From positions 1 through 37,176 of IMG/VR virus record IMGVR_UViG_3300044644_000053: 37,176 bases of DNA, one strand, 5' to 3'. Below the pieces are notes generated by a model. The model saw only the letters and a program-made list of their open reading frames with translations, did not search any database and had not been told where the DNA came from. The translations under genes and the position numbers were made by a program. Below, piece after piece: positions 1,868 through 21,565 of this stretch (position 1 is the stretch's first letter; each line of letters begins with the position of its first letter). This DNA comes from a virus.

Positions 1868-2562
1868 CTCTTCCCCCAGTGACTTACGAACCACAGCCAC
1901 AGCCACAGGTAGAGGAGGAATATAGAAGTCGCCACCACTGCCGCCAGCTTGGCTTGCAGGTTTCTTTCCTCTTGACGGTGTAGCCATCTGTCTTGCCTCT
2001 TCTTCGCCTCCTCCTTGAGTCTAGCTTTTTCCTGTTCCTCTGAGATGACTTCGCGCATCTTGAAGACTTCGGAGTACAGTGCGCCCATCTCTGGCGGTGA
2101 CTGATACACCATAGTCTCTCGGATTTGAATCACCAGCCTGTCCATCTCTTGCTGCGCCATCACACGCTTTAAGGCGGCTTCCATGAGGTTTTGATCAGGG
2201 TCATAGACAGTTTGGCTTTTCTCTTCTTCCTCCCTGATGTGCGCGGCCAGTTGTTCTTGTAGCTTGAAAAACTCGGTCAGGTTTCTGACAATGTCAATCT
2301 TGACTTGTGTCTCGTCAACTGCGACATAGGCTTGCTTCTTTTTCGCCAAAGGCTTTGCACTGGCGGCTGGCTTTGGTTTGCCGCCAAAGAATGCAAGCAG
2401 TTGATTCCAGAAGCCATATGCCTCTTTTCCAATTTCAATGACTTGGTCAGCCGTTGCCTTAATCTCAACAAAGGATTCCTTGGCTTGCTTGTACAGCTCG
2501 CATCCGGCTTGGATGTTCTTAACCAGCCCAGCGGCAAGCAGACAGATGCTGATCGGATCAAT
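1864..2562 (-). CDS. Membrane-anchored coiled-coil protein with apparent AUU start
   Basis: The reading frame is open from a TAA at 2565-2563 down to 1864 and reads as plausible protein throughout, but the first 71 codons contain no ATG, GTG or TTG until a TTG at 2349. The codon right after the TAA is ATT (2562), preceded 7 bases upstream by a perfect AGGAG (2574-2570). I therefore take AUU as the start, giving 232 residues that begin (M)DPISICLLAAGLVKN. The N-terminus is hydrophobic, the middle is a long charged helix, and the C-terminus has a Trp/Leu-rich membrane segment (about 206-226). The function is unknown; it may act in lysis or membrane remodelling. An alternative is a shorter protein from TTG 2349 (161 residues). 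Confidence 0.65.
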   Translation of the reverse strand: MDPISICLLAAGLVKNIQAGCELYKQAKESFVEIKATADQVIEIGKEAYGFWNQLLAFFGGKPKPAASAKPLAKKKQAYVAVDETQVKIDIVRNLTEFFKLQEQLAAHIREEEEKSQTVYDPDQNLMEAALKRVMAQQEMDRLVIQIRETMVYQSPPEMGALYSEVFKMREVISEEQEKARLKEEAKKRQDRWLHRQEERNLQAKLAAVVATSIFLLYLWLWLWFVSHWGKR

Positions 2563-2571
2563 TTACAGCTC

Positions 2572-2727
2572 CTAGAGCTTTAAAACAAGCGTCATCAGCA
2601 TACCAATGATGGCGGCACATGACCCTATCAATATCTGCTCAATGCGCTTGAGTCGAGCGTTGATGCTCTCGTATCGAAACTCGCACACCTGTTCGTGCGT
2701 GTCTAAGCGTGCTTCAACTGGTGTCAT
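2572..2727 (-). CDS. Small helical membrane protein, 51 residues
   Basis: The ATG at 2727 forms an ATGA overlap with the upstream gene. The product starts MTPVEARLDTHEQ, has a charged amphipathic helix up to about residue 31 (RLKRIEQ), and ends in a hydrophobic membrane segment (ILIGSCAAIIGMLMTLVL). This layout resembles XhlA-type lysis-associated proteins and many unnamed small phage proteins, but I cannot assign a family. Its end carries the AGGAG that serves the AUU-start gene downstream, so the two may be translationally coupled. Confidence 0.7.
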   Translation of the reverse strand: MTPVEARLDTHEQVCEFRYESINARLKRIEQILIGSCAAIIGMLMTLVLKL

Positions 2728-2894
2728 GCTGCTGGCTCAGTTGGCGCTGGCGTTGCTGCTTCAGCGTCTGCAAGTGCTTGTGCTTCAGCGGCCTGTGCCG
2801 CTACTGCCGCATCATGGATGGCTTGTTCTTCAGGTGTGTACTCAACGATTGCGGTTACGCCTGTCTCTACGTTAACTACGATTCTATGTGTCAT
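2724..2894 (-). CDS. Small acidic Ala-rich protein downstream of fibre genes
   Basis: A 56-residue protein starting MTHRIVVNVETG. A short beta-like N-terminus is followed by an Ala/Glu-rich tail (AAQAAEAQALADAEAA) ending TPAPTEPAA. Short proteins of this kind often sit behind tail-fibre genes in aquatic phages, and their function is unknown. It lies 3 bases after the last fibre paralogue and overlaps the next gene by four bases. Confidence 0.7.
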   Translation of the reverse strand: MTHRIVVNVETGVTAIVEYTPEEQAIHDAAVAAQAAEAQALADAEAATPAPTEPAA

Positions 2895-2897
2895 TTT

Positions 2898-3434
2898 TTA
2901 TCCTTCATACATGATGTTGATTGTTCCGGCATCGAAAGTGTCCGTGCCGTTGACGGTGGTGATGCGTACTCGGTCGAGTGTGCCTGATAAAGAAAGGCTT
3001 CCTGTTGCAGTTCCAGCGGTTGTTGCGCTATCAGTTCTGCAAACAGTGCCAGAGCATAACCAAGTGTTACCAGAAATAAGAGTAAGAACAATAACCCCAG
3101 TTAAAGGCGTTGCTGCTGAATAGTTTGCTGCAATAAACAACCCAAAACCAGTAGTTGGAAATGCGCTATATGCAGAAGTATTTTGAATATTTGTTACAGC
3201 AGAAAGATAACCGCTTGTTACAAATGAGCCTGACCCAATTTGAATTTGTGGCAAAGATGTGCCGTTTGTGCTTATACCACTAAACATGACCGTCACCCGC
3301 TTCACCCAACTTGGCAACGCAGTAAAGTCAATGCTTGTACCTGATGTGCTGGCAACAGCAGTGCCTCTGGTAATCCCTAGTACTGCACCATTGTTGATCG
3401 TGACGCTTGCTGAACCATCGATGACTGTTGCCAT
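2898..3434 (-). CDS. Tail-fibre-like paralogue 3 of 3
   Basis: A 178-residue, Ser/Thr/Gly-rich, probably all-beta protein. It shares two blocks with the next two genes upstream: a central GTAVASTSGTSIDFT...PSWVKRVTVMFSG block and a C-terminal block DRVRITTVNGTDTFDAG that ends in YEG. The middle is variable. Such a fixed frame around a variable core is typical of receptor-binding or virion surface proteins, so a host-recognition role is inferred. The N-terminus (MATVIDGSASVTINNG) differs from the other two copies. No enzymatic motif is visible. Confidence 0.7.
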   Translation of the reverse strand: MATVIDGSASVTINNGAVLGITRGTAVASTSGTSIDFTALPSWVKRVTVMFSGISTNGTSLPQIQIGSGSFVTSGYLSAVTNIQNTSAYSAFPTTGFGLFIAANYSAATPLTGVIVLTLISGNTWLCSGTVCRTDSATTAGTATGSLSLSGTLDRVRITTVNGTDTFDAGTINIMYEG

Positions 3435-3436
3435 GA

Positions 3437-4027
3437 TTAACCCTCGTACAAAATGTTGATTGAACCAGCATCGAATGTGTCAGTGCCGTTGACAGTCGTG
3501 ATGCGGACTTGGGTTAGCGTGTCTGAGAGGGTTTTGCCGCCAGACCCTAAAAAAGTTCTCGCAGAAATAAAATCATTTAGGTTTGTAGCGGAAACCCATA
3601 CATTACTTCCAAGCGTACAAATTGTAGTAATGCCATAGTAAGCAGCACCAGCATTGCCAAAAGTTCCAACTAATAAACCAGTGCTAACATTAGTTGTTGC
3701 TGCGGTAGCATTGACGATATATGTCATGCTTGATCCATATCCAGTAGTTTCAACCCCCCCAGAATCACCTAGTTGAATCTGTAAGTTACTTGTACCACTT
3801 GTACTAACCCCACTAAACATCACTGTGATTTTCTTACACCACGCAGGTATACCAGTGAAATCAATGCTTGCACCTGATGTGCTGGCAACAGCAGTGCCAG
3901 CAGATATTCTCTGCATCTGCGCCCGTGACGCATTGCTGTCAGTCCCAAAGAATTGACCGTTGTATTCAATGTTGCCTGTGGCTGGTGTACCAATCAGCGT
4001 GTCAGAAGTTAAAGCAAGTATTGACAT
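3437..4027 (-). CDS. Tail-fibre-like paralogue 2 of 3
   Basis: A 196-residue paralogue of the flanking genes. I start at ATG 4027; an in-frame TTG at 4033 would add only two residues and overlap the upstream stop. The N-terminus contains GNIEYNGQFFGTDSNASRAQ, a form common in phage structural proteins that precede a fibre tip. The GTAVASTSGASIDFTGIPAW block and the C-terminal VRITTVNGTDTFDAG block match its neighbours, and the intervening 90 or so residues vary. It is probably part of a set of alternative or co-assembled surface proteins. Confidence 0.7.
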   Translation of the reverse strand: MSILALTSDTLIGTPATGNIEYNGQFFGTDSNASRAQMQRISAGTAVASTSGASIDFTGIPAWCKKITVMFSGVSTSGTSNLQIQLGDSGGVETTGYGSSMTYIVNATAATTNVSTGLLVGTFGNAGAAYYGITTICTLGSNVWVSATNLNDFISARTFLGSGGKTLSDTLTQVRITTVNGTDTFDAGSINILYEG

Positions 4028-4029
4028 GA

Positions 4030-4602
4030 TCAACCCTCTAGTAAAAGATTTACGGTTCCGGCATCGAATGTGTCAGTGCCGTTGACGGTGGTGATGCGTA
4101 CTCGGTCTAGAGTTCCACTCAATGTGACATCACCGCCGCCTACACAAGTTGTTGTTGTTAAATTCTTTAAAGTATGGCTAGAAATCCAAATATTACTGCC
4201 AAGCAGCGTAATTGTCATATGACCACTATTTATGTTTGCCGCAGCAACTGCGTACATAAAAAAACCAGTTGTACCATTTGATGTTCCAACACCAGCGCCT
4301 AAAGATGAAGATGTAGAAATATAGCCGCTAGTTGTTACAGAACCTGAGCCAATTTGCACAAGTATTGCGCTAGTTCCGCTTGTACTCACGCCTTGAAACA
4401 TCACAGTAATCCGCTTAATCCAACTCGGCAAACTTGTGAAGTCAATCGCTGTACCTGATGTAGACGCAACCGCTGTACCCAATTTATTGACAGCATTTGT
4501 CGCAGTGGCGGCTTGAAGTGTCAGCGTATTTGTACCAGCAACAGCAGGCGCTGATACTGTGATAGCCCCGCTGGTGTCTCCTGAAATAATTACTGAGGAC
4601 AT
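4030..4602 (-). CDS. Tail-fibre-like paralogue 1 of 3
   Basis: A 190-residue paralogue, first of the tandem three in transcription order. It has an N-terminal beta-like stretch (SSVIISGDTSGAITVSAPAV) that is seen widely in short fibre proteins of aquatic phages. The shared GTAVASTSGTAIDFT...LPSWIKRITVMFQG block and the C-terminal VRITTVNGTDTFDAG block follow. It overlaps paralogue 2's upstream region by a few bases. The role in receptor binding is inferred from composition, duplication and position after the tail genes. Confidence 0.7.
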   Translation of the reverse strand: MSSVIISGDTSGAITVSAPAVAGTNTLTLQAATATNAVNKLGTAVASTSGTAIDFTSLPSWIKRITVMFQGVSTSGTSAILVQIGSGSVTTSGYISTSSSLGAGVGTSNGTTGFFMYAVAAANINSGHMTITLLGSNIWISSHTLKNLTTTTCVGGGDVTLSGTLDRVRITTVNGTDTFDAGTVNLLLEG

Positions 4603-4621
4603 TATTGAATCTCCTTATCAA

Positions 4622-5143
4622 TCATAAAACCACCCACCTTGCACCACTTGGAATGGTGACGGTGATGCCGCTGTTAATAGTTATCGGGCCAACACTGTGT
4701 GCATTGTTGGAAGAGCTGAGTGTGTAGTTTGTGGTCACAGTGAGCGTGTTCTCGTAGAACACCGTATCAGCACCGCCACCAGTTGCACCACCACCCACTG
4801 AAGACCAAACACTGCCGTTGTAGCCTTCAAACTTGCCGAGTGTGGTGTTGTATCGGAGTTGACCGGCTGCTGGTGATCCTGGCCGCTGTGCCGTAGTGCC
4901 TGACGCAATCTTGATGGCATCGGTTGCCGAGACAGTGAATGTGCCAGAGACAGACGCTGTGCCTGCCACCGCCAATGTCTTGCCTGCGCCAATGTTCAAG
5001 CCAACTGATGTGCCAGTGCCTGCGGCAGCGAAAACGGCATCAACAGCATCCAAATCGGTGTTGATCTTTGTGCCCCAAGTGTCTGTTGACGCGCCAACTT
5101 CTGGCTTTGTCAGCAATAGATTTGTGGTGGTTGTATCTGCCAT
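4622..5143 (-). CDS. Tail fibre protein, [12 protein letters not shown] type
   Basis: A 173-residue protein starting [17 protein letters not shown], a phage structural N-terminus recurrent in freshwater and marine phages, probably the part that docks a fibre to the tail. It continues with a [15 protein letters not shown] repeat-like section and a [23 protein letters not shown] segment, the collagen-like or 'tail fibre knob' module often found in phage fibres. It is short for this family, which usually carries a long C-terminal tip. Here the tip function may be supplied by the three downstream paralogues. Confidence 0.75.
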
Positions 5144-18020: not shown

Positions 18021-20102
18021 TCAGAACGATTCGCTTGATTCACTTTTGACGGTCAACCACGCAAATCCATCGCTGATCTGTCCATGTCCATGTCTGGACA
18101 AGTCCTTCCTAACCCGCTGCCAAGTGATCTTGAAGCTGTCCTTATCCTCATCTGTGCACCCCATCTTTGACCACAATTCCTCTCTCCAGTGCTTCAAATC
18201 CACCACCATGCGCTGTGAACCTTCGATTAACTTCAAGAAGCCATTCTTCTTAATCGCATTTTCCAAGCATTGGAGCGACAAGACCTGATTCTTGCCGTGT
18301 CCTGCGTTGCTGGACGCGCCTTTTGCGTCCCTTTTCAGCGCGTCAAACTGTCCGAGTTCGCATGGGTTGACGGCCAAACTGGTCTGCGGCTCACCGATCT
18401 GGAGTGATCCTTGTGGCGCTGGCAGCTCCACCGTGACCATCTCAAAGCCGATCCTGTCGTTGTCCGCACCGTCCTTTTGCTTGCTGATGGTGACGATTCC
18501 TTTCATGCTGTCTTCGAATCTGAGCAGCTCCAGCTCGGTGTCCACTGCCCCGAGTAGGCTGGAGTGGCCGCGCAGTCCTTTGGTGGCATCCTTTCCACTG
18601 TGGTGCAAGATCATCAGCCCACAGTCCTGCACGATCTGCTGAATGCGTCCACAGGCTGTGATAAACGCTCCCATGTCTTCGCTGGAGTTCTCGTTGCCAC
18701 CGCCAAAGGCTCTGGCCAGCGTGTCTATGACGATCTGCTTGAATTCGATACCCGACTGCTGCACCAGTACCTCGATGGCCAGCACCAGCGCGTTGAAGTC
18801 TTCGATGCTGGAGCGTAAATTCAACTGATGGCGCACTACATAGATCGGTGCGCCACTCTCTGTTTGGTGGTGAATCTTGAGCGCCTTAATCCGCGCACCG
18901 ATACCGCCAAAGCCCTCGCCTGCGATGTACAGCACCGCACCTGCCTCGTTGACCTCTCTGCCCATCCATGCTGTGCCGGTCGCAATGGCGTGTGCAATGT
19001 CCAAGGCAATGAACGACTTGAATGAGCCTGGTGGACCGTAGAGTGCGCTGAACGCGCCAACAGGCAACACGCCATCAATCAACCACTTCACCGGCTCATC
19101 TTGGATACTGTCCCAATGCTCGATCTGTATTTGCTTTGACGGTTTTGGTGGCGCTGGTGGCTCTGCCGCAAACTCATGTTCAATTTCTAGCGTTTTCTTT
19201 ACATGATCAAGCTCATGTGTATGCTTTTCCTCGTTTTGTGTACTTGATTGCAAAATCGGATTCAATCGTTCGGGCATCGTTACCTGATCCAGCGTTGTGA
19301 TGATTGGCGCGGCCTTGACCAACGCCACCAGCTCGGCTCTACCGCCACCCGCCTCGATGAATTCAAAGGCATCGTCACCTTGCCCTTGCAGACCGAGGTC
19401 AACTACCTTCAGTGACTTGACGATGGGCAGTATTGCCTCGGCAGCCTTGTACGCATAACCCCAACCCGCCACATCGTTGTCCGGCACGATGATGACTTGC
19501 GCTCCGGCAAAGTATTCGGTGATGGCGGCAGGCCATGATCCTGCGCCAGTGTGCGCGGTGGTGGCGATCATGCCAATTGACTTGATCGCGTCCGCTGCCT
19601 TCTCGCCCTCTACCAAGAAGACATTGCGCCCCGCTGTCTTCGCGTCCAAGAGTGCCGGCAAGTTGTAGGGCACGATGCGAGCATCTCCAAGCGTTGTGGA
19701 GCGTCTGCCATCACTATCAACTTTGTAGAGTCTATAAGTCTTTCCAGACTCCCCTATCTTGTACCGCTGCTTGACGAACACTGTCTGACGGTCCTCATCC
19801 TGATACGCCCACTCCTGTTCCAGTATGTTGCGCGGAATGGGTCTGATGTTGGCTAAGGGATCAGGCTTGTCCAAGAGTTCGGGGAGCAAGTTCAATGCTC
19901 TGATGGTGTGGAAGACATCCTCTTGGCTGCACCCACCGTGGCAATGGAAGAGAGGCTTGCCCTCGTCATTGATGTCGATGCTGAGACTTGGATTCTTGTC
20001 GCCGTTGCCTTTGCCGTGACTCGGTACAGGGCAACTAGCCACCCATTGACCGTTGGCTTTCTTCGCGTTGCCCAGCGTCTTGGCTATTTGTTCTGCTTGC
20101 AT
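18021..20102 (-). CDS. Primase-helicase fusion
   Basis: A 693-residue replication protein starting at ATG 20102, which has GAGG five bases upstream; the frame extends 12 codons further up without a ribosome site. The N-terminus carries a zinc motif (Cys24, His29, Cys54, Cys58). A TOPRIM primase centre follows: VEGEKAAD at 164-171 and PDND at 207-210. The C-terminal half is a RecA-like/RepA-type ATPase, with Walker A GPPGSFKS (356-363), Walker B IVID (457-460) and a LHHSGKD sensor segment (499-505). It should prime and unwind DNA at the phage fork, while DNA synthesis would come from the host, since no polymerase gene is visible. Its start overlaps the methyltransferase gene by 19 bases. Confidence 0.9.
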   Translation of the reverse strand: MQAEQIAKTLGNAKKANGQWVASCPVPSHGKGNGDKNPSLSIDINDEGKPLFHCHGGCSQEDVFHTIRALNLLPELLDKPDPLANIRPIPRNILEQEWAYQDEDRQTVFVKQRYKIGESGKTYRLYKVDSDGRRSTTLGDARIVPYNLPALLDAKTAGRNVFLVEGEKAADAIKSIGMIATTAHTGAGSWPAAITEYFAGAQVIIVPDNDVAGWGYAYKAAEAILPIVKSLKVVDLGLQGQGDDAFEFIEAGGGRAELVALVKAAPIITTLDQVTMPERLNPILQSSTQNEEKHTHELDHVKKTLEIEHEFAAEPPAPPKPSKQIQIEHWDSIQDEPVKWLIDGVLPVGAFSALYGPPGSFKSFIALDIAHAIATGTAWMGREVNEAGAVLYIAGEGFGGIGARIKALKIHHQTESGAPIYVVRHQLNLRSSIEDFNALVLAIEVLVQQSGIEFKQIVIDTLARAFGGGNENSSEDMGAFITACGRIQQIVQDCGLMILHHSGKDATKGLRGHSSLLGAVDTELELLRFEDSMKGIVTISKQKDGADNDRIGFEMVTVELPAPQGSLQIGEPQTSLAVNPCELGQFDALKRDAKGASSNAGHGKNQVLSLQCLENAIKKNGFLKLIEGSQRMVVDLKHWREELWSKMGCTDEDKDSFKITWQRVRKDLSRHGHGQISDGFAWLTVKSESSESF

Positions 20103-21565
20103 ATTGCCTCTACTTGTTCTATGCGTTGCCCGATCCATGCCATCACAGGCACTGCCATGCTGTTGCCCAAGGCTTTGTACCTTGGACCATCAGGCGTTGG
20201 TTTGCCCTTTGATTTGATGTCGGTGTAGTTGTCGGGGAAGCCCTGCAATCTCTCGCATTCGACTGGGGTGAGTCTTCTGACGGCCATGGCTTGCATAACG
20301 CATTGCGGCTGACCACCGCCAGTTGGGGATTGCTTTGTCAGCGTCAGCGCCTGATCATGGTTGTACTTTGGCGTTTGCTCTGTGGTGAATGCCATGGGTT
20401 GCGTTGTCACCGGCACATTTCCACCGCCAGTTCCCCATTTGCTTGTGACGGTGCTGCAAGTCTCGCCAAGGTCACGCACTCTGCTGTCCTGTCCATGCAT
20501 CTCATAGACTGGTTGCGCTACATAAGTTGTGCTTTCATGCTTATCAGCGCGAGATGCGCCTGACCGCAAGCAATGACCGACATCAGGTTTTTCTGATACG
20601 CCAAACGGTATAGGTTGCGCCACACCATGCACACCTGTGGCGTTGAGCGTGTACATCGGGCCGCCATCAGTAAACCCATCACCGTTGCCGCCGTTTTGCG
20701 GTTGCCGTCCAATGGTGTTTTCAGCAAGGGCAATGGGTTGCGCTGGCACAAACATCGGGCAATCATTGTTGATGTGCTGATTCTCTAATCCTTGTTTAGA
20801 GCCAAAAGATGCATTCAGCGTGCTACTTATTTCGGCTGGCCAAGCCTTGGTAACAGGAATCATTTTGGCAGAGTTCTTATTCATGCCATCTGTACCTGCA
20901 TCTTTGTAATCCCTTGCCGACAATGGGCCAGTTAACTCTACTCCACAATCGAAACTGCTTTTAATGCTTGTTCCAACGCTGGCGGCAACACTTTGCCTCT
21001 TTTCTCTGCTCGGCGCAGGATGCCCTTGCAAGCTGTGGCGCTCAAAAAGAACCGCTGCGGCAACTCGCCAGTCTCCAAGGTATCCGACAACGAACACACG
21101 GCGGCGGCGCTGTGCCACTCCAAAGTATTGAGCGTCAAGAACGCGGTATGCGAACCCATACCCGAGTTCTCCCAGCGCCCCGAGGAAGACTCCAAAATCT
21201 TTTCCTCCGTTAGATGACAAGACACCAGGGACATTCTCCCAGACCAACCATCTGGGCCGATATTGGTCAGCAATGGCAAGATAGGTAAGCATGAGGTTGC
21301 CACGCGGGCCATCCAATCCTTTTCTGAGTCCTGCGACTGAGAAAGACTGACAGGGTGTTCCTCCGACAAGAAGATCGACATTTGTTCCAAGATTCCACTC
21401 CTTAAATTTCGTCATATCGCCAAGGTTTGGCGTTTGTGGGTAATGGTGCGCCAGCACTTCAGAGGGAAATCTTTCGATCTCCGAATACGCCACTGCCTCC
21501 CATCCAAGGGGATGCCATGCTACGGTTGCCGCCTCAATACCACTGCAAAGTGAGAGATATTTCAT
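20084..21565 (-). CDS. DNA cytosine-5 methyltransferase
   Basis: A 493-residue C5-cytosine methyltransferase. Motifs in order: I (LSLCSGIEAATVAW, 4-17), IV with the catalytic PCQ (GGTPCQSF, Cys72), VI (WENVPG, 109-114), VIII (QRRRRVFVVG, 152-161), then a long variable target-recognition region. Motif IX (RRLTPVECERLQGFPDNYT) and X (RYKALGNSMAVPV) are near the C-terminus. No restriction endonuclease is adjacent, so it is an orphan enzyme, probably protecting phage DNA. It starts only 17 bases after the U-tract of a terminator and has no visible Shine-Dalgarno. A second long frame overlaps it (20938..21381). Confidence 0.92.
   Translation of the reverse strand: MKYLSLCSGIEAATVAWHPLGWEAVAYSEIERFPSEVLAHHYPQTPNLGDMTKFKEWNLGTNVDLLVGGTPCQSFSVAGLRKGLDGPRGNLMLTYLAIADQYRPRWLVWENVPGVLSSNGGKDFGVFLGALGELGYGFAYRVLDAQYFGVAQRRRRVFVVGYLGDWRVAAAVLFERHSLQGHPAPSREKRQSVAASVGTSIKSSFDCGVELTGPLSARDYKDAGTDGMNKNSAKMIPVTKAWPAEISSTLNASFGSKQGLENQHINNDCPMFVPAQPIALAENTIGRQPQNGGNGDGFTDGGPMYTLNATGVHGVAQPIPFGVSEKPDVGHCLRSGASRADKHESTTYVAQPVYEMHGQDSRVRDLGETCSTVTSKWGTGGGNVPVTTQPMAFTTEQTPKYNHDQALTLTKQSPTGGGQPQCVMQAMAVRRLTPVECERLQGFPDNYTDIKSKGKPTPDGPRYKALGNSMAVPVMAWIGQRIEQVEAICKQNK
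20938..21381 (-). CDS. Overprinted ORF within the methyltransferase gene
   Basis: A 147-codon frame on the same strand as, but out of phase with, the methyltransferase gene, from ATG 21381 (weak GGA five bases upstream; an in-frame TTG lies at 21390). The C-terminal part reads SLSDTLETGELPQRFFLS, then ACKGILRRAEKRGKVLPP and a short helix. I recall this pattern (RFFLS..AC.GILRRAEKRGK.LP) from many phage proteins annotated as separate hypothetical genes, which argues that this frame is translated and not chance. It overlies the methyltransferase motif VIII codons. The function is unknown; confidence is limited because I cannot run the comparison. Confidence 0.5.
   Translation of the reverse strand: MSIFLSEEHPVSLSQSQDSEKDWMARVATSCLPILPLLTNIGPDGWSGRMSLVSCHLTEEKILESSSGRWENSGMGSHTAFLTLNTLEWHSAAAVCSLSDTLETGELPQRFFLSATACKGILRRAEKRGKVLPPALEQALKAVSIVE

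Follow-up and report, generated by a model that had tools for sequence, protein, structure and literature searches.

We identified a second gene, overprinted in the +1 frame, inside the C5-cytosine DNA methyltransferase (MT) gene of a phage, and comparison with its relatives demonstrated that it is coding, has its own translation start, is old, is found in a broad range of phages, and resides strictly in MT genes. The window, that is, the whole stretch of DNA analyzed here (37,176 nucleotides), is a phage record over its full 37 kb. The overprinted gene (150 aa plus stop) lies on its minus strand at 20938..21390 and was recognized from the list of open reading frames, the translation, and the coding constraint in relatives. 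Judged from sequence comparison and without expression data, this frame almost certainly encodes a real protein.

The host frame of the overlap encodes an MT of 493 aa (20084..21565, minus strand; PF00145, E=8.2e-57; TIGR00675), with the motifs PCQ, ENV, QRRRR, and RRLTPVECERLQGFP all within one frame. The profile match together with the motifs PCQ, ENV, QRxRR, and GNS qualified the gene as a member of the PF00145 C5-cytosine DNA methyltransferases. The column table placed the ENV motif (21230..21238, minus strand) and motif VIII, QRRRRVF (21095..21115, minus strand), under the hidden frame. Motif IX (RRLTPVECERLQGFPDNY; 20225..20278, minus strand), which coincides with conserved columns of alignment A6, lies in the MT frame outside the overlap, and the MT of the window, having motif IX in its own frame, therefore has no need of a partner for it. 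The gene is orphan, complete, and unsplit, and it is flanked by a Toprim/AAA_25 (primase/helicase-like) gene and a DUF2800/PD-(D/E)XK nuclease gene. Residues ~177 to 415 were mostly of low confidence in the structure model of the MT, which would suggest, as far as a model can, that the enzyme can tolerate an overlap there.

The earlier note had described a 147-codon same-strand frame inside the MT gene, and this frame is real. From the ATG at 21379-21381, an open frame of 147 codons plus stop extends over 20938-21381 (minus strand) in the +1 frame of the MT gene 20084-21565 and ends with RFFLSATACKGILRRAEKRGKVLP; each hidden codon comprises positions 2 and 3 of one MT codon and position 1 of the next. 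A likelier start of the same ORF is the TTG three codons upstream (21388..21390, minus strand), giving 150 aa, because the Shine-Dalgarno (SD) sequence TAAGGAG (21398..21404, minus strand) lies exactly 7 nt upstream of it and the SD, the spacing, and the start codon (ATG or TTG) are kept in most close relatives. An SD with a start in an open hidden frame was present in 84%, 60%, and 90% of the three unbiased sets described below, compared with 9-13% after shuffling. The start site varied by clade, with TAAGGAG-7-TTG/ATG in the window's clade and GAGGTG-8-ATG in the Firmicutes-type clade, so that two MT clades have two different start sites and two different SD sequences; the hidden genes of P1 and P7 have GGAG-7-ATG. 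Since the start signals stand at differing places across clades, we argue that initiation itself is selected. Its own conserved translation start is one criterion for an overlapping gene that the hidden frame meets.

The first relatives were retrieved by the hidden C-terminal domain and comprised 129 phage records and >590 IMG/VR stretches, 80 of which were kept; in the kept loci, the domain was in the +1 frame of an MT gene. As retrieval by the domain favors the hidden frame, we assembled three more sets with MT residues 1-50, which precede the overlap, as the sole query. The hidden C-terminal domain was identified in-frame by profile in 78/80, 79/80, and 76/80 loci of these unbiased sets (233/240), with the seven misses comprising five contigs that end too early, a broken MT (L288), and a degenerate hidden frame (L296). 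The synonymous-shuffle test was applied to 106 non-redundant MT genes from two of the unbiased sets (SVCSGIE type, phage and bacterial contigs). Over MT codons 156-204, pairwise identity was 0.608 in the hidden frame and 0.454 in the MT frame, against 0.215 for the synonymous-shuffle null. Hidden-frame stops amounted to 0.18% over these codons versus 1.86% in the null, a depletion of approximately tenfold, and to 0.39% versus 2.9% over MT codons 85-155, upstream of the domain; third-frame stops were not depleted (4.1% vs 4.3%).

Variability by MT codon position inverted at MT codons 181-195, where position 3 fell from ~0.6 to 0.21 and position 1 rose up to 0.56, and the same inversion was present in the retrieval-biased set (position 3, 0.14; position 1, 0.49). 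Over the hidden domain, the third positions of the enzyme were thus the least variable and the first positions the most, which is the signature of a protein read in the +1 frame. The column table likewise contained hidden residues (L, P, L, A, and L) that were almost invariant, with the matching MT residues scattered. The z-scores ignore shared ancestry, and we therefore placed weight on the identity of the hidden frame above that of the MT, the frame-specific depletion of stops, and the inverted codon positions. As measured on these alignments, selection over the last ~50 codons of the hidden frame is stronger than that on the MT frame. A further criterion for an overlapping gene, constraint in the second frame in excess of what the MT frame imposes, was thereby satisfied. 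The proposal that a very old second protein, recurrent in phages, is overprinted on the MT was strongly supported by the wide phage range, the conservation, and the stop depletion. The outcome named in the earlier note as a refutation, with homology confined to what the MT frame forces and with stop codons in relatives, did not materialize, the hidden frame being more conserved than the MT and almost stop-free.

The conserved C-terminal domain of the hidden protein, CSLSDxLETGxxPQRYFLSxxACxGILRRAEKRGKxLPxxLxxAL (20941..21096, minus strand), was defined from alignments A1, A4, and A5 and from AlphaFold helices. AlphaFold (91 relatives) was confident only for a C-terminal hairpin, with helices at 118-131 and 137-148 and a block pLDDT of 86-94; the remainder was of low confidence (pTM 0.33), and the middle part is less conserved. 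Searches of Pfam, NCBIfam, and PADLOC with the hidden protein gave no informative family, and a PDB sequence search gave no relative. Foldseek gave no structural relative, its best PDB match (E=3.2) being rejected, and its best viral match was Thibault gp104, itself a hidden-frame product.

Residues 3-7 of the hidden protein, QMSIF (21370..21384, minus strand), form a clamp-binding-like QLxLF motif that was recognized by its enrichment in the N-termini of relatives and sits in a low-confidence, probably disordered, region of the AlphaFold model. QLxLF is the validated consensus for binding of the bacterial sliding clamp (beta-clamp) (PMC4549789). Variants of the motif included QLTLF in Rctr41k and Lily, QLDLF in Dallas, QMTLF in MM1, and QVSLF in gut phages, with a degenerate form, QLTTN, in P1. 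The strict QLxLF pattern occurred in 23% of 136 non-redundant hidden N-termini versus 0.0% after shuffling. A looser regular expression matched 37-71% in four of five sets versus <1% in the null and 0% in the fifth set, the Firmicutes-type clade A3. The motif followed an SD-preceded start by 1-12 codons in 49/55 cases. These counts are uncorrected for shared ancestry.

The hidden gene was found in P1 and P7 and in Vibrio, Pseudomonas, mycobacterial, Streptococcus, Ruminococcus, and Faecalibacterium phages. No free-standing copy outside an MT gene was present in about 410 tested domain loci, and the earlier suggestion of looking for the same protein outside MT genes in independent phages thus yielded nothing; independence from the MT cannot therefore be argued that way. 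Each apparent free-standing exception was explained by a frameshift or truncation of the MT, by a mobile intron, or by a domain start that had been wrongly extrapolated. Candidate separate "QLTLF..SPARTS..WPTP" proteins beside methyltransferases proved, in the three phage records checked, to be read in the +1 frame within the genes of other C5-MTs. The longest +1 frame averaged 203 codons in Lily-type MTs (null, 88) and 145 codons in MM1-type MTs (null, 65; only 7 non-redundant genes), with the +2 frame at its null in both types. A motif-IX-like sequence was in the hidden frame in 19/33 Lily-type MTs and in the MT frame in only 3. Homology among the hidden proteins of different MT subfamilies, beyond the likeness forced by the MT, is not proven.

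Variant loci were also observed. Gut-phage relatives have a poly-G tract inside the overlap, between the ENV and DAQ motifs, with 7 G in L343, L346, L362, L366, L367, L382, L396, and L413, 6 G in L418, L419, and L423, 8 G in L383, and 9 G in L417; the loci were in-frame at 7 G and often frame-swapped at 6, 8, or 9 G. Slippage at the tract would join the N-half of the MT to the hidden C-terminal domain and is a possible form of phase variation, with assembly error not excluded. The MT was split in L067, L173, L341, L346, L354, L355, L362, L367, L375, L396, L399, L404, and L406, where one ORF stops after motifs I-VIII; the C-half of the MT is encoded in the hidden frame, downstream of the hidden domain, and its translation would therefore depend on the hidden start. 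A shorter case, L304, has a motif-IX/X-like sequence in the hidden frame. In the mycobacteriophages Thibault (L098) and Schatzie (L100), an insertion with an annotated HNH endonuclease (about 1800-2500) breaks both frames within the overlap; that of Schatzie is annotated as an intron, and a similar insert precedes the domain in a Rhodocyclaceae contig (L321). An intein-like insert was located inside the PCQ motif, just upstream of the overlap, in Metarhizobium album (L262; MT ORF 2423-5005). The MT of L514 is shortened (250 aa), and its hidden frame, cut to 48 codons, retains QMSLF and CSLSDILEDTVPDSYFLS. The P1-like dmt of Escherichia phage vB_EcoM-813R1 (L009) has both frames shifted inside the C-terminal domain.

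The small chain of the methyltransferase M.EcoHK31I is read from an alternative frame inside the gene of the large chain. The hidden protein of the window, encoded in another frame inside the MT gene, meets the criterion of this layout, and in both systems a C5-MT is accompanied by a second, small polypeptide. Of the two polypeptides that make up the C5-MT M.EcoHK31I, the smaller holds only motif IX (PMC3404938), and the enzyme needs this second chain for activity according to the title of a report cited there (NAR 1995, 23:103). Motif IX is in the small chain of M.EcoHK31I, whereas it is in the MT frame of the window, and the hidden protein, unlike that small chain, ends in the YFLSxxACxGILRRA domain. 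Further, M.EcoHK31I belongs to a restriction-modification system, whereas no nuclease partner was seen for the MT of the window. The criterion of motif IX only in the small chain was failed by the window protein and met only in Lily-type relatives. Because motif IX is absent from the hidden protein, we did not class it as an M.EcoHK31I-type beta subunit, although it may still work like one.

Streptococcus phage MM1 has orf13 and orf14 annotated as alpha and beta subunits, with orf14 named "C5 methyltransferase beta subunit". Like the window gene, orf14 is in the +1 frame of an MT gene, with QMTLF near the N-terminus and CSLSDILEEEVDERYFLS at the C-terminus; unlike it, orf14 belongs with a different MT subfamily and ends soon after YFLS, without the GILRRAEKRGKxLP helices. 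We found no functional test of orf14, and its function is an annotation. Paenibacillus phages Lily and Redbud have an annotated "internal gene" in the +1 frame of an orphan C5-MT, with QLTLF near the N-terminus, but it spans most of the MT and ends in the motif-IX-like LNPxxxExxMGFPxxWTD. The profile of PHROG_16143 ("DNA methyltransferase", 139 positions) matched residues 7-119 of the window protein (E=2.4e-9) and 75/104 relatives, and we conclude from these matches that the family already contains hidden-frame proteins. PHROG_16143 is named after the overlapped gene and does not cover the C-terminal domain; it appears to consist of hidden-frame proteins, in which case its label is misleading. 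Those gut-phage loci in which the hidden ORF is joined to the C-half of the MT resemble M.AquI, a two-chain, split C5-methyltransferase, whereas the MT of the window is unsplit. It had been suggested that the pair could be a previously overlooked unit, and this holds in part: no literature description of a conserved hidden family was found (subscription papers were mostly outside the reach of the search), but MM1 orf14, the "internal gene" of Lily and Redbud, and M.EcoHK31I (PMC3404938) were already on record. Parts of the family have been glimpsed by annotators (the MM1 "beta subunit" and the Lily/Redbud "internal gene"), and the family itself is almost unannotated.

In the explanation that we favor, one mRNA of the phage C5-MT gene would yield two proteins, the MT and the 150-aa hidden protein, the latter initiated at an internal ribosome-binding site in the +1 frame. 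The hidden protein would begin with a short peptide, in many cases QLxLF-like, continue with a middle of lower conservation, and end in a helical hairpin. By analogy with M.EcoHK31I, it would bind the MT during synthesis of the two proteins and serve as an accessory (beta-type) subunit, and the motif at its N-terminus would bring the MT complex to the replication sliding clamp, with new phage DNA being methylated while it is copied. We give this model as a whole a probability of roughly 0.5, in the absence of expression, binding, or activity data. The role as an accessory subunit of the MT, inferred from strict co-encoding and the M.EcoHK31I precedent without binding or activity data, is slightly favored over its negation. 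Binding to the clamp, inferred from the N-terminal motif and the primase/helicase-like and nuclease neighbors without binding data, remains a tentative suggestion.

The hidden protein, although real, could instead act apart from the MT in anti-restriction, host takeover, or regulation and merely share its DNA. The conservation of the hidden frame, which can exceed that of the MT frame, and the basic C-terminal hairpin, which could bind nucleic acid, leave room for such a role; however, an independent gene should sometimes escape the overlap, which happened in zero of the about 410 domain loci, and other phage MT subfamilies also carry a +1 internal gene. We consider separate action doubtful, though not to be neglected. 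An inhibitor or timer of the MT, for example one restraining it until phage replication, would be compatible with the fixed co-encoding and with translation from the same mRNA, which by inference would couple the amounts of the two proteins. No direct evidence supports restraint, and the activity of M.EcoHK31I, going by the cited title alone (PMC3404938), requires the second chain. By inference, an accessory subunit suits that precedent better than the "regulator or inhibitor" put forward in the earlier note, and inhibition or timing appears unlikely.

Constraint at the DNA or RNA level, or a frame reached by frameshifting from the MT, would require no separate protein, and in some gut-phage loci one half of the MT is indeed joined to one half of the hidden frame, often close to a G tract. 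Yet variation tracks the codon positions of the hidden frame, stops are depleted, and an own start is kept at two independent sites, leaving this account with very little credibility: we rejected RNA- or DNA-level constraint on the codon-position pattern, and programmed frameshifting as a general route on the conserved own start. A frame open only through MT-frame constraint and base composition can practically be dismissed, since, although high-GC genes can give long +1 frames (null mean longest frame of 101-130 codons in SVCSGIE-type sets), synonymous shuffles come nowhere near the observed conservation, stop depletion, and SD, and five ordinary C5-MTs of the same bacterial genomes have no excess in the +1 frame.

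The accessory-subunit model may extend further. It is conceivable, but on balance improbable, that the genes of most phage-type C5-MTs, across several subfamilies, obligately encode two proteins and that the hidden +1 product is a clamp-binding subunit coupling phage DNA methylation to replication, which would be the bacterial-virus counterpart of DNMT1 recruitment by PCNA. CRISPRi in a laboratory host scored the dmt region of P1 as non-essential (PMC10695390). Of the full same-strand overlaps in tailed phages, this is one of the better supported, and it places a conserved, almost unannotated gene within one of the commonest phage auxiliary genes, including P1 dmt. Mutating, deleting, or codon-optimizing such MTs alters two proteins at once, and the MT may have been assayed without its partner. 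If it is true that the partner links methylation to the replication clamp, this would account for the methylation of phage DNA ahead of attack by host restriction.
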